Of a stretch of 64,000 nt of DNA, positions 20,560 through 64,000 are shown piece after piece (the first letter of the stretch is position 1; each line of letters begins with the position of its first letter). Made by a program: the position numbers and the translations under genes. Where the stretch lies: positions 17,675,001 through 17,739,000 of the forward strand of contig NC_135254.1 of NCBI RefSeq assembly GCF_964204865.1. The letters run 5' to 3'. The notes beneath the pieces were generated by a model, which searched no databases, was not told the origin of the DNA, and saw only the letters and a program-made list of their open reading frames with translations. This stretch comes from Styela clava. Taxonomy: Eukaryota > Chordata > Ascidiacea > Stolidobranchia > Styelidae.

Positions 20560-20850
20560 TCACTGATGTAAAATTTGAGATCTGAGATAAACATTTCCAT
20601 TACATTTGAACCCGTGTACATGTGAACCCAGGTACTTTTGAACCACGTACATCTGAACCCACGACAATTGCACCTGCGTACTATCGCACTTATGGATTTT
20701 TTTTGTTTTACGGATATTTGAACCCCTATTAACCATAACCCATGGGTTTTAGCACCCGCATATAGATTGAACCCGCGGATATACACATGGGTTCAAATAA
20801 ACATGGTTCAAATGTACGTGGGTTCAAATGTACGGTCACCGAGATAAACA
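20560..20850. mobile_element. Small foldback-like element with (GTACATKTGAACCC)n arms
   Basis: The left arm holds three to four copies of ACATTTGAACCC-like units; the right arm holds the same unit inverted (GGGTTCAAATGTAC). The structure is the same as that of the larger element at 51110-51710, whose unit differs by one base (GCACCC). The minus-strand open frame 20451-20786 is a translation of the repeats. Confidence 0.55.
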
Positions 20851-51109: not shown

Positions 51110-51710
51110 GGTTGGCGACGGTTCCATTATCTTTATACCCACGTACATTTTCACCCATGAACAATTGCACCCATACATTTGCACCCGCATATTTTGGCAC
51201 CCACATATAGATTGCACACATGAACATTTACACCCACGTAGGCCTACATTTTCACACCTGTACATTTGCAGCCACGGACCTTTGCAAATGCGTAGATTCG
51301 CACCCGCGTACATTTGCACCCGCGTATAGTTGCACCCGCGTACATTTGTACCCACGGACATTTGCACCCGCGGATATATGCAATCACAGACATTTGCACC
51401 CACATACCTTTGCACCCATGTACATTTGCACCCACGTACATTTGCACCCATGTACATTTTCACTAATGAACATTTCACTATTAATCAAGTGTACATGGGT
51501 GCAAATGTACATGGTTGCAAACGTTCATGGGTGCAAATGTACATGGGTTCAAATGTCCGCGGATGCATTCTATATGCGGGTGCTAAAATTTATGTGTGGA
51601 AATATATGGGTGCAAATGTCCGTGGATGTAAAAGTATGCAGGTGCAAATGTCCTGGGTGCGGTTCTTGGGTGCAAATGTACGTGGGTGAAAATGTGCTGT
51701 CACCGTTGGA
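51110..51710. mobile_element. Foldback element built of (GTACATTTGCACCCAC)n
   Basis: The left arm, about 51137-51470, is a tandem array of a 15-16 bp unit (ACATTTGCACCCACGT and variants, some 20 copies). The right arm, about 51490-51700, is the same unit inverted (GGGTGCAAATGTACAT). The junction lies near 51480. Open frames of up to 172 codons on both strands (for example with PRTFAPAYSCTRVHLYPRTF) simply translate the array. A relative with unit GTACATTTGAACCC is at 20560-20850. Confidence 0.75.
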
Positions 51711-54153: not shown

Positions 54154-54305
54154 AGCTATTTTAGGCTTTACACAACCTTCTCACAGCAACGCTCTGAAGT
54201 TATACCCGCCGATGTAAGACTATCAGACGAGATAGGAAATAACAACAACGCTTTTGAAGTTATATCCGCCGATGTAAGACTATCAGACAAGATAGGAAAT
54301 AACGT
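54154..54305 (-). promoter_or_regulatory. Lipocalin L6 promoter block, tandemly duplicated
   Basis: Read on the minus strand, ATTTCCTATCTTGTCTGATA then GTCTTACATCGGCGGATATA ... AACTTCAAAAGCGTTG is followed by a second copy about 58 bp further on. Single copies stand before L2 and L5. Both copies retain the TATA-like (C/G)GATATAA or GGGTATAA word. Confidence 0.5.
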
Positions 54306-57673: not shown

Positions 57674-60091
57674 ATGTCACTGGCAGAAAGAATAGGAATA
57701 GCGGTATTTGCCGTATTTCTATTTGGAAAATGCGGTGCTTTTATTGAGACAACTATGTCCAATGAGTACATGATTTGCAGACCTGTTGCAGGTGTGTTTG
57801 GAACCTTGGGCGATGGAAAAAATAGTTCAGAAAAGGGAATCATGCCTGTTTTGCAGGGACCGGAAGGATCTCCAGGTCCACCAGGAAAAACAGGACTTCC
57901 GGGTCCAAGAGGAGAACCAAATTATCAAAAAGTTTCCACAATTGTTGGAGACAAAATGCACTCGATTAATGGTAAATAATTTAATTGTTTTTGTGGTATT
58001 GTGAAGCTTACCAACAATCGTGACTACGAATATTTACAGGTCGGCTCACAGGGAAGTAATGAAATAAATTAACTTTTCGGTATTGAAATTCATTATATGA
58101 AAAAAGCTATCATATCCACGTACTAACGAAATCATTTTTGAGTAACCGTACTGAACTGATATTTACAATATATTTTTCACTTTTTAGCTCGACTATTCAA
58201 ACTTGAATCCGAACTCGCAAGCCTAAAAGGTAAACGCAATTAAAGAATATATATTTAATATGAACGATATACATATTCAATTGAACGGCTTATTATAATA
58301 ATTGAAAAATACGCATGGTATATGACACCGGCTAGGATCAATATCTTTGTTTAATACTTCTCATTTCATGCAAAAAAGAAGTAATAATCTCTTTTCCGTC
58401 TTGAAACTATACGGAATTTAGAAATTCCCGCATATTTACACATTTTTATATATGTAAACATTTTTTATTTAATGTAAACTTATAAATATATATATTTAAA
58501 TTTCAGCCAGTGGTGGTGGCGGCGGAGGCGGAGGCGGAGGTAGTTCTGGAGGCTATGTTCCACCCACACAATCGCCAGAAGATATAAAAAATGGTAACAT
58601 TTTTGATTTTCCCTTTTTTTAATATGATATTTTTGGTCTATTGTGAATACGGAAAACACGTCATTAGGAATTAGTCTAGATCATTTTATCAAATAAGCCA
58701 CAAGGCCTCTATGACAGTAGTTGATTTGCAAGCAAATCTCAAACATAACAACGTTGCGAGGAATTCTGTCAAACTTTTCATTTCGTTTCAATCATGTCAT
58801 GGGACTGAACAATTGTATAATAATCAACTGTGCACACTTCACTAGTTTCCATTATTGTTCAACAATAGCACGATGGTTTACACTTTACAATAATAGACAA
58901 CAATAACTTAGGCTACAATATTGAACTTTTTCCAATGCCCAATCCAAAATCCCATCACTCAATTTTAAAACTATTAGTAATTAACGTGTAAATTTCTCAT
59001 AGCCAAAGATTGCATGGATAAATACAAAAGTCCGATCAACATAGGCACAATGTGCTATAACATAATTGGCGGTGAAGGGTTGTTGTGGACATTTACAGCG
59101 GCAGAGGTGAGTGTAATAAATGAGTACATCGATAACTCTACTTATGTATCTGAGTGTTAGAAGGCAATAGGACAGATATCCTGTTTGTACATTGTTCATT
59201 TATTCCATTTTTGTTTGTTTTAGTCAAATTGCTCAAAACTTGGAGGATATTTAGCCGATCTCAATTCTCGTGAAGTGTATGACAAAATATACAACTACAT
59301 TGATCAAACCTACAGCACAGTGGTGCAGGCCTGGACTGGTATGCGATACGAGGTAAGATATTTCAATCAAAAATGCGTATACGTAGTTCAAAGTTCAATT
59401 GTGCGTTGAACTGTGTAATAAGTCATCTGAATCCATCACCTTTGACGAAAAGAGCGATTGTAACTCAAGTTATTTTCAGTTTGGCAATGTTGTTTAACTC
59501 AATCACTGTCAAATGCTGAGAAAGCTCAAACGAATAAAGAAAGTGTGTGACATGCTCCATAAATTTTCGTTGTTAAACTGCATTGTTCACACATACAAAT
59601 ACTTCGGCACAAACAGATAGATAGAAAGATAACTACACTGAAGAATACAGCAATGCGGGATAATTTAATCCAGCTAGTTGTTGGCATGAGAATGCAAATT
59701 TGATAGATCCTTCAATGAAGTTCTAATTTGTTCATTCGCGATAAATGGAAATTATTTGGACAACTACTGGGAAATAGAAAACAAAAATGACTAAAATTGA
59801 AAAAAAAAAAAAAATTTAAATCAGCTCTCGTTCCATTTATTGCAGGATAACAAATTATTACTTCGTGATGGGAAAGAAGCGGTTTACGCTAAGTGGTCGT
59901 CCGGTTATCCGCGACAATCAACTACTTCGTACTACGCATCATACCAGAAGGTCTACATATATATGGACACCTCAGCCTACATTAGACGATTGTCCAACAC
60001 TCGCAGCAGCACCAAAAGAGCATACGCCATTTGCAGTTATGATCTAAAAGGCAACTCCACAACTTCTGCAACTCCCACAACAACAGGATAG
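57674..60091 (+). CDS. Collectin-like secreted C-type lectin (301 aa)
   Basis: Six exons: 57674-57971, 58188-58229, 58507-58593, 59003-59106, 59224-59352 and 59846-60091; total 906 bp with consistent phases. In order: signal peptide (MSLAERIGIAVFAVFLFG then KCGA), about 60 residues, seven collagen Gly-X-Y triplets (GPEGSPGPPGKTGLPGPRGE), a short helix-prone neck (ARLFKLESELASLK), ten glycines in a row, then a C-type lectin domain (DCMDKY, TMCYNI, WTFTAAESNCSKLGGYLADL, WTGMRYE, GKEAVYAKWSSGYP, RAYAICSYDL) and a Thr-rich tail. The stalk plus lectin layout is that of collectins, secreted sugar-binding innate immune proteins. The EPN/QPD and WND calcium-site motifs and one of the usual late cysteines are absent, so classical calcium-dependent sugar binding is doubtful. 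Possible polyadenylation signals are ATTAAA at 60182 and AATAAA at 60283. Confidence 0.85.
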
Positions 60092-60496
60092 AATATAACG
60101 TGACTGGTGTGCTGTTCCATTTGAATTTTGAAATGCTCTATAAAACTAGCGGAAAACAGCGCTTACAAGAGTTTGCTTTCTATTAAAGAAAACAAAACTG
60201 AAGGTTTTCAAATTGTTGTTTAATATGCTGCTTGATTTTTGCTTCTTTTTTTCGTCTTGTATTTGCTGTAACAATTGATGAGAATAAAAATATAACTGGT
60301 ATTTATATGCTTTGTATCAGTGCATTAGGCAAGATTTTACAGTAATTCAAATGCATTGCGTAAAAATGAGATACAATACACAACGCCGCAAATTAAGCAC
60401 GGTTTAGTCAAATTAAAATCTAGTGAAGCATTTTCCCTAATATGAAGATATTCAACGAGGCTGAAAATCTATGAAATTCGGCATCCGGTGATTAAA

Positions 60497-60840
60497 TAAC
60501 GAGAGAGCAATGCTCAAATATGGACGAAACGGAGAAGTACGGGTATCAAATTTTGTACACTACCGGTACTGTAGTCCTCCCGACTTCGACTGGTGACCAG
60601 AGCGCAACAATCGCGAACGGGGAACAATGTGCGCAATTTTTCATTTTGTGACGTCATCACACAAAAACAAACCGACCCCATGGAACCTCAAGGAATTTCT
60701 GAAACAAATAAAAGTAATATCTGTCTAGCTGAAACATTAATCTTCAACCACCAAAAATGAATGTCAAAGCAATAACTAAAATACTAACAGCAAAACAATA
60801 CCAACAAAGAGACTTATAGGTCCACGTCGTGTCTAATACT
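60497..60840. repeat. Interspersed repeat family R, copy 5
   Basis: Shares GAGAGCAATGCTCAAATATG and the tail AACAGCAAAACAATA ... TTATAGGTCCACGTCGTGTC with the copies at 18722-19105 and 39455-39870 (GATCTATAGGTCCACTACGT). It separates the first lectin terminal exon from the next. Confidence 0.55.
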
Positions 60841-60871
60841 AATGATTCGAATATGTATTTTCGTTTGGCAG

Positions 60872-61192
60872 AATAACAACCTCATCAAAACTGATGGCAA
60901 ACAAGCTAAATTCTCGAAGTGGATGACCTACAATCCTCGCAAGTCCGGAACTTCGTTTTACAGATCATACACATACATCTTAGCCAGGATTGACACCAGT
61001 TCCCGCGTGAATGGCCTTCAAAATGTGCCGGGCACTCGCAAACTTTCCTACGCAATTTGTCATTTTGATATATCTGGAGCTGTAACCACGAGAAGAATCA
61101 CAACAGAAACTACACGAAAAACTCGTCGTCCATACACGCGCATATCATACGGCCCCGTTCGACCACTTAATATCGGAGATGATTACTACTGA
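60872..61192 (+). CDS. Second lectin terminal exon (6b): alternative last exon or gene fragment
   Basis: After a good acceptor (TCGTTTGGCAG) the frame runs in phase 0, as exon 6 of the lectin at 59846 does, to a TGA at 61190-61192: NNNLIKTDGKQAKFSKWMTY ... GLQNVPGTRKLSYAICHFDI, then a tail rich in Thr and Arg ending in NIGDDYY. No exons 1 to 5 lie between it and the previous terminal exon. Splicing from exon 5 (59352) would give a 326-aa protein. It is either an alternative last exon of the lectin gene or a left-over of tandem duplication. The intact frame favours use. Confidence 0.65.
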   Translation, partial: NNNLIKTDGKQAKFSKWMTYNPRKSGTSFYRSYTYILARIDTSSRVNGLQNVPGTRKLSYAICHFDISGAVTTRRITTETTRKTRRPYTRISYGPVRPLNIGDDYY

Positions 61193-61856
61193 CTTCAGCG
61201 AAATCTTTCATATCAAAGTTGCTCAAAATTTAATTTCAATTTTGAAGGCTTGCTTGTAACATTTCATATATGTGGTTACTTGCTGCGGTACAATTAACAG
61301 ATTTAATTGCATACGTATTCTAATCAATCTCACTACACTAATTAATCAACATTTTATTAACGAACAAATTGATAGAGTATTCATATTTAGTCTAATTTTT
61401 CTCATAAATCGTAAAGTAGGCTATATAATTCACGTTTCTAATTCAAAATTGAATGATGACTTTGTGATAGAAAGCACTAAAAATGTATATTATAGTTCCT
61501 GAAATTCTCCACCTCTTTCGAAACGATCCTCTCCAGCACTAATGTATATATATAAAAGAACGGAACGTCGCGCTTCGCCCAATCTAGAATGCAAATTGCA
61601 AGTTCAGATGGTAAATAGGGATAATATATATATGAGCAATATATTGACACGTATTAAGTTAGATTATTGGGGACGCTTCTGTAGTTGTTTGGGCCATCGT
61701 TTATTTGCCAAGCAAGTGAGTGATTACGCCTGTCTATTCACTTGAACCTGGGTGATGCTAAGATATATTCCAATAAACGGACTACTATAAATCTTGTGTT
61801 TGGCATGCGTTATCATAAGAAATTCGACTTATTATGTTTTTATTTAATTTTCACAG

Positions 61857-62180
61857 CGCAGCAGACTTCTTAAAACAGATGGTACAGAGCCAAAATTTGC
61901 CAAATGGATGTCTTACAATCCTCGTAAGTCGACAAGTTCATTCTCATCGTATTATAGAACATATACGTACGTGCTTGCTAATATCGATACAAGTTCGCGT
62001 ATTAATGGACTTCAGAACGTACCGGGTACCCGGAAATTGGCATACGCTATTTGCCATTTTGACACATCTGGAGCTGCAACTACAAGGAGAAGCACCACGA
62101 CACAGAAAACGACAAAGACCATGCCCTATGCAAACAGGCGTTACCACTACCGCCCAGGTCTCGGGAATGATTATTACTGA
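61857..62180 (+). CDS. Third lectin terminal exon (6c): alternative last exon or gene fragment
   Basis: Acceptor TTAATTTTCACAG, phase 0, frame to TGA at 62178-62180: RSRLLKTDGTEPKFAKWMSY ... NGLQNVPGTRKLAYAICHFD, then TTRRSTTTQKTTKTMPYANR and a Tyr-rich end (YHYRPGLGNDYY). It is closer to exon 6b than to exon 6a (shared YNPRKS, NIDTSSR/RIDTSSR, LQNVPGTRKL). As for 6b, no upstream lectin exons precede it. Splicing from exon 5 would give 327 aa. Confidence 0.65.
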   Translation, partial: RSRLLKTDGTEPKFAKWMSYNPRKSTSSFSSYYRTYTYVLANIDTSSRINGLQNVPGTRKLAYAICHFDTSGAATTRRSTTTQKTTKTMPYANRRYHYRPGLGNDYY

Positions 62181-63842: not shown

Positions 63843-64000
63843 TTAGCTAGAGTAATAATAATAGTCTGAATCATAGTCGTCGTAACTACTGGTAGTTGTC
63901 TTCTGCGTGGTCGTACTTCTTCGAGTGGTGGCGGCATTTGACATGTCATAGTGGCAGATAGCGTATGCCAGCTTTTTACTAGCAGGTGTGTTTTGTAATC
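63843..64000 (-). CDS. Terminal exon of a neighbouring lectin copy (partial)
   Basis: The minus-strand frame enters at the right edge as LQNTPASKKLAYAICHYDMS, goes on NAATTRRSTTTQKTTTSS and ends in an acidic, Tyr-rich tail (YDDYDSDYYYYSS) at a TAA (63845-63843). It is clearly homologous to the 3' halves of exons 6b and 6c. Its 5' part lies outside the window, so it belongs to a convergent lectin gene or to a further exon copy. Confidence 0.75.
   Translation of the reverse strand, partial: LQNTPASKKLAYAICHYDMSNAATTRRSTTTQKTTTSSYDDYDSDYYYYSS

Follow-up and report, generated by a model that had tools for sequence, protein, structure and literature searches.

A probable cluster of three homologous alternative last exons in a predicted collagen-stalked C-type-lectin-like gene of Styela clava

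Gene A and its three candidate last exons

A stretch of 64,000 nucleotides of the genome of the ascidian Styela clava (bases 17,675,001-17,739,000 of contig C5), referred to here as the window, carries a gene, gene A, predicted to encode a secreted collagen-stalked C-type-lectin-like protein. Exons 1-5 of gene A span 57674-59352 on the plus strand, with gt-ag introns. Three last exons, 6a, 6b and 6c, come next on that strand. The layout probably represents an old cluster of homologous alternative last exons, which would exchange the second half of a C-type-lectin-like domain (CTLD) and the tail behind it on one collagen stalk. The exons are as follows.

57674..57971, plus strand: gene A exon 1, with a probable signal peptide, a conserved MIC...VFG segment and a short collagen stalk of 7 Gly-X-Y triplets
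58188..58229, plus strand: gene A exon 2, a short coiled-coil-like neck (RLFKLESELASLK)
58507..58593, plus strand: gene A exon 3, a Gly-rich linker
59003..59106, plus strand: gene A exon 4, the first part of the CTLD
59224..59352, plus strand: gene A exon 5, the CTLD up to WTGMRYE, ending in phase 0 at the donor gtaaga
59846..60091, plus strand: last exon 6a, the CTLD second half and a short Thr-rich tail, 81 amino acids, the most divergent copy
60872..61192, plus strand: last exon 6b, the CTLD second half and a Thr/Arg tail ending DDYY, 106 amino acids
61857..62180, plus strand: last exon 6c, the CTLD second half and a Thr/Arg tail ending NDYY, 107 amino acids

The domain order is that of a signal peptide (probable, by inspection), the MIC...VFG segment, the collagen triplets, the neck, the Gly-rich linker and a CTLD which runs across exons 4, 5 and 6. 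Each last exon begins in phase 0 behind an AG acceptor and stays open to its stop, and in the alignment the three acceptors coincide in codon position and phase. Joined in frame to exons 1-5, exons 6a, 6b and 6c give products of 301, 326 and 327 amino acids. An earlier note on this DNA had described three intact phase-0 terminal exons behind exons 1-5 on one strand, and its coordinates, acceptors and open frames were right.

The homology among the three exons is far beyond chance, with tblastn E-values of 1e-35 for 6b against 6c and 5e-15 for 6a against 6b. The locus has the layout of such clusters: homologous terminal exons in one frame, AG acceptors and a single upstream exon set. In length 6b and 6c lie within the default 20-residue tolerance of WebScipio (PMC3228551), whilst 6a, 25 residues shorter than 6b, lies outside it. 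The resemblance is also uneven in sequence. Of 66 domain positions that can be aligned, 49 are identical in 6b and 6c, and the earlier description of three different binding halves was overstated, 6a being the distinct one. It was overstated in a second respect, as the classical Ca2+/sugar-binding residues are absent by inspection from all copies.

The paralogous gene B and a fourth last exon

At the right edge of the window lies a convergent paralogue, gene B, which the earlier note had not included. It is complete, on the minus strand, encodes 315 amino acids (L005 843-3227, or 63843-66227 on the scale of the window) and runs past the window edge. Gene B has the same six-exon plan and phases as gene A, with a single last exon, 6d.

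63843..64000, minus strand: part of 6d, which gene B has as its only last exon

Amino acid identity between the two genes is 54% in exon 1 (94 codons), 64% in exon 2 (14 codons), 54% in exon 3 (24 codons), 74% in exon 4 and 81% in exon 5. Among the last exons, 6b and 6c are 65% identical and each is 62% identical to 6d, while 6a reaches 40, 44 and 47% against 6b, 6c and 6d, respectively. Exons 6b and 6c are therefore closer than 6a to the sole last exon of gene B: the supposed fragments resemble the last exon of the paralogue, and it is 6a which is divergent. In a tree of six sequences 6b and 6c are sisters (support 88), joined next by 6d (86), with 6a outside; in an approximately unbiased (AU) test on the four exons, the two other pairings were not rejected (p 0.063 and 0.066). 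As regards the age of the cluster relative to the A/B duplication, 24 of 31 fourfold sites differ between 6b and 6c, against 38 of 64 between exons 1-5 of the two genes (Fisher p 0.11).

Thr/Arg-rich tails are conserved in 6b (61080-61192), 6c (62075-62180) and 6d (L005 843-930), and 6a lacks one. They end in acidic and tyrosine residues, DDYY in 6b, NDYY in 6c and DSDYYYY in 6d, and are possibly glycosylated and tyrosine-modified. Within gene A the chemistry of the tails differs, from short and Thr-rich in 6a to Thr/Arg-rich with an acidic-tyrosine end in 6b and 6c.

The genome (377 Mb in 379 contigs) was searched for additional copies. With the 6c protein as query, four matches were obtained at E <=0.001, namely 6a, 6b, 6c and 6d. 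A search with 6a at E <=10 gave 13 matches, comprising the four known exons and nine others from E 0.24 upward. Neither search revealed a further clear exon-6 copy.

Conservation of the last exons

The pattern of change in 6b and 6c points to conservation. They differ at 110 nucleotides, distributed 26/24/60 over the three codon positions (p 4e-6 for the excess at third positions). Non-synonymous divergence (dN) is 0.27, and synonymous divergence (dS) is saturated and undefined, as the NG86 method also returned for several exon pairs. The changes were next assigned to lineages, counting those at sites where the other two of 6b, 6c and 6d agree. Synonymous changes make up 17 of 39 on the 6b lineage (p 0.009) and 17 of 33 on the 6c lineage (p 0.0007), where about 0.25 would be expected for equally likely random changes. 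By codon position the changes peculiar to 6c number 6/10/17 (third-position excess p 0.023), and 6d likewise has a third-position excess (p 0.004). A codon model on 6b, 6c and 6d with a free dN/dS ratio (omega) is better by 65 log units than one with omega fixed at 1. In a neutral simulation started from 6c, with equal rates and no insertions or deletions, 6b and 6c were both still open in 22 of 5000 runs. The case for constraint is weaker for 6a than for 6b and 6c, the differences between 6a and 6b being distributed 42/32/45 over the codon positions. No meaningful homology was detected between the flanks of 6b and 6c; their similarity is therefore confined to the exons.

The earlier note had proposed comparing synonymous with non-synonymous change, and had also offered the alternative that 6b and 6c are gene fragments. 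As dead fragments they are unlikely, since they are as near to 6d as to each other (62-65% amino acid identity), are saturated at synonymous sites and have a synonymous excess on each lineage. The codon-position pattern, the codon model and the neutral simulation point the same way, and the idea was set aside as a leading view, with the reservation that 6b taken alone has no significant third-position excess (p 0.12).

Upstream exons at the locus

Profile searches covered six-frame segments of at least 15 amino acids in the whole window and in a 30-kb stretch beyond (C5:17738001-17768000), using models which include some of the sequences under test. On the plus strand of the window they recovered a single exon 1, a single exon 5 and all three exons 6 in full, and over the combined region genes A and B each had a single exon 1 and a single exon 5. 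These searches gave only a weak signal for exon 4 (independent E-value 0.12), which is found by tblastn, at 74% identity in gene B. Hidden upstream exons between the last exons were considered and rejected: stalk or first-half lectin exons gave only noise-level matches there, in agreement with the earlier statement that no extra upstream exons lie between the last exons.

The lectin-like and collagen domains

Against the curated Pfam Lectin_C cut-off of 22.6 bits (PF00059), the CTLD parts taken alone pass narrowly, exons 4, 5 and 6a scoring 24.4 bits and exons 4, 5 and 6b 23.0 bits. The full-length 6c product (17.8 bits) and gene B (16.9 bits) fall below it. The C-type lectin domain is defined by conserved cysteines C1-C4, of which C2 and C3 form an inner pair. 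Inspection shows C1 (SNC) and C4 (YAIC), while the long form of the domain is suggested by an N-terminal cysteine pair (DC, MC). Each exon 6 has one cysteine, so the C2-C3 pair is missing and the domain has part of the C1-C4 set.

In collectins and mannose-binding lectins the Ca2+ site is marked by the motifs EPN or QPD, and WND. The corresponding positions here read NPR or YPR and LQN or LSN, as aligned by inspection. With neither the C2-C3 pair nor the EPN/QPD or WND motifs in any copy, binding may be to a protein or to some other surface. A comparison of exons 4, 5 and 6b with PDB sequences yielded 17 weak hits at E <=1, led by a type II antifreeze protein of the sea raven (E 0.0036), and none is strong enough for a ligand to be named. 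With the Pfam Collagen model (cut-off 27.2 bits) gene B scores 15.0 bits and no match is listed for gene A, in which the 7 Gly-X-Y triplets are visible.

The lectin-like family elsewhere in the genome

Exon 1 of gene B has 80 matches in the genome at E <=1, and a genome search with Lectin_C yielded 698 candidates; 150 of these were scored, and no count is taken from that search. The family as a whole is large and seems to include several tandem arrays. On contig C18 (C18:16033598-16082525) eight exon-1-like matches of the collagen-stalk family lie on one strand about 6.95 kb apart, probably a very regular, recent tandem gene array. On contig C2 (C2:17572220-17603731) six such matches are spaced alternately by about 6.9 and 5.4 kb, which suggests that a unit of two genes, about 12.3 kb long, is repeated in tandem.

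Matches to exons 4/5 and to exon 6 at E <0.1 were counted in nine paralogous loci, each 7-10 kb long. Six of them (L036, L037, L038, L053, L054 and L055) have one of each; L055 gives a weak match (E 0.044) and L038 a partial one. The counts are 2 and 2 in L039, where the second exon 6 is weak and partial, 2 and 0 in L040, and 0 and 0 in L056. None of the nine has more last-half than first-half matches, against a ratio of 3 to 1 in gene A.

Interpretation of the cluster and its alternatives

In the favoured arrangement, the exon 5 donor (59352) would be spliced to 6a, 6b or 6c, one per transcript, and the choice of poly(A) site after each last exon would probably set which one is used. The products would have a common signal peptide, stalk, neck and first half-domain, and three different second halves and C-terminal tails, with a presumed role in recognition. 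It is about as likely as not that the three conserved second halves and tails give a single secreted recognition protein different ligand faces and tail chemistries, the choice perhaps depending on tissue or challenge.

The earlier note had put forward splicing to alternative last exons, and of the explanations considered here it is the best supported: 6b and 6c have their synonymous excess, they match the sole last exon of gene B, and they have no recognisable other upstream partners. It did not gain support from the poly(A) signals. Two hexamers can be placed after 6a and 6b.

60283..60288, plus strand: AATAAA, a candidate poly(A) signal 192 nucleotides past the 6a stop; frequency near chance
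61772..61777, plus strand: AATAAA, 580 nucleotides past the 6b stop and just before 6c; frequency near chance

The DNA here is AT-rich, and AATAAA occurs 2, 1 and 1 times after 6a, 6b and 6c, where 1.28, 0.84 and 1.75 would be expected, and because these counts are near chance the signals are not used as evidence.

A number of observations weigh against alternative last exons. The poly(A) signals do not discriminate between the explanations, and none of AATAAA, ATTAAA or TATAAA occurs on the plus strand for about 900 nucleotides after 6c. A donor-like GTAAGT lies inside the coding sequence of 6c at 61924, and could lead to a shortened product or to further splicing; 6a and 6b were found to have no GTAAG/GTGAG motif. 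The changes peculiar to 6b (12/10/17 by codon position) show no significant third-position excess (p 0.12). As the flanks of 6b and 6c lack homology, the unit of duplication cannot be defined. The profile searches are blind to a strongly diverged or non-lectin 5' exon. The comparison of nine loci used a model which is weak on diverged last halves, missing or barely seeing those of L040, L055 and L056. Finally, the selection tests average over the entire history of 6b, 6c and 6d, and a recent loss of separate upstream exons would give an equal signal.

This last point bears on the possibility that 6b and 6c are relics of tandem gene duplicates whose exons 1-5 were deleted too recently for decay to have set in. 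Whole-gene duplication is common in this large family with its apparent tandem arrays, and the averaging of selection over the time since the b-c-d split would accommodate it. Two separate losses would however be required, only 780 and 664 bases separate the successive last exons, with no recognisable trace of exons 1-5, and both 6b and 6c are open although their split is saturated at synonymous sites. Such relics are accordingly considered unlikely.

It is distinctly improbable that one last exon only is at work, either 6a by proximity or 6b or 6c by conservation, with the rest bypassed or mere noise. Exon 6a is the nearest to exon 5 and has an AATAAA within 192 nucleotides of its stop, and there is no sign of extra last exons at the other paralogous loci examined. 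Against this, 6b and 6c each have a lineage-specific synonymous excess, and 6a is itself intact and, with exons 4 and 5, exceeds the Lectin_C cut-off (24.4 versus 22.6 bits). Trans-splicing of separately transcribed 6b and 6c to the stalk exons of gene A or gene B is hardly to be expected, since ordinary cis-splicing over 0.5-2.5 kb suffices, even though exon 5 of gene B also ends RYE in phase 0, making its stalk frame-compatible with every exon 6, and there is a precedent in Drosophila mod(mdg4) (PMC12692577), whose common exons are joined to alternative 3' exons with independent promoters.

Relation to known systems

Genes whose homologous alternative terminal exons are selected along with multiple poly(A) sites are known, human capping protein beta being an example. 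PMC3228551, in which they form the WebScipio 'type B' clusters, regards such exons as most probably reflecting multiple poly(A) sites and not true mutually exclusive exons. Gene A resembles the 'type B' clusters outlined there in having homologous same-frame last exons, each with its own stop, behind common upstream exons. It differs from them in having three copies, which would exchange half of an extracellular lectin-like domain and a tail, in isoforms predicted from sequence, and in 6a exceeding the default length tolerance. Drosophila mod(mdg4) and lola are also named in PMC3228551.

Gene A would share with these two genes an unvarying group of 5' exons and a choice among single terminal exons. 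The products of mod(mdg4) and lola are nuclear factors, with many ends and an involvement of trans-splicing, whereas gene A would encode a secreted stalked protein with three. Collectins combine a collagen stalk with a C-type lectin domain. Gene A departs from them in having only 7 collagen triplets and a CTLD split over exons 4, 5 and 6, and in lacking the EPN/QPD or WND-type residues and the C2-C3 cysteine pair. It resembles the ascidian mannose-binding lectin homologues and collectins (PMC5465252) in its predicted collagen stalk and C-type-lectin-type domain, and is a plausible humoral recognition protein.

Large invertebrate lectin families are usually ascribed to gene duplication. If gene A does keep one stalk and exchange the second half of its recognition domain through choice of the 3' end, diversity in recognition would have a second source, at the level of RNA, in an animal closely related to vertebrates. 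Among the titles and abstract openings of the open-licence literature matches listed, none reports alternative last exons varying half of a C-type lectin domain. With its 3:1 exon ratio, and no such excess at the nine paralogous loci compared here, gene A offers a clear test case.

Other features

No tRNA was found in the window, and no Rfam family matched it at the gathering score. At 51137-51695 a 16-bp minisatellite (TACATTTGCACCCACG-like) switches orientation partway, continuing as the reverse complement, and so forms a large palindromic repeat; units like it are also present at 20601-20834. At 54183-54303 a 60-bp unit is duplicated head to tail, with about 91% matches. Elsewhere in the genome, contig C9 has a cellulose-synthase match (C9:16177457-16177855, 26.6 bits, cut-off 24.7) and, on that strand some 2 kb further downstream, a match to GH6 (C9:16179895-16180164, 35.4 bits, cut-off 27). 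A cellulose synthase adjoining GH6 in an animal is a tunicate signature.

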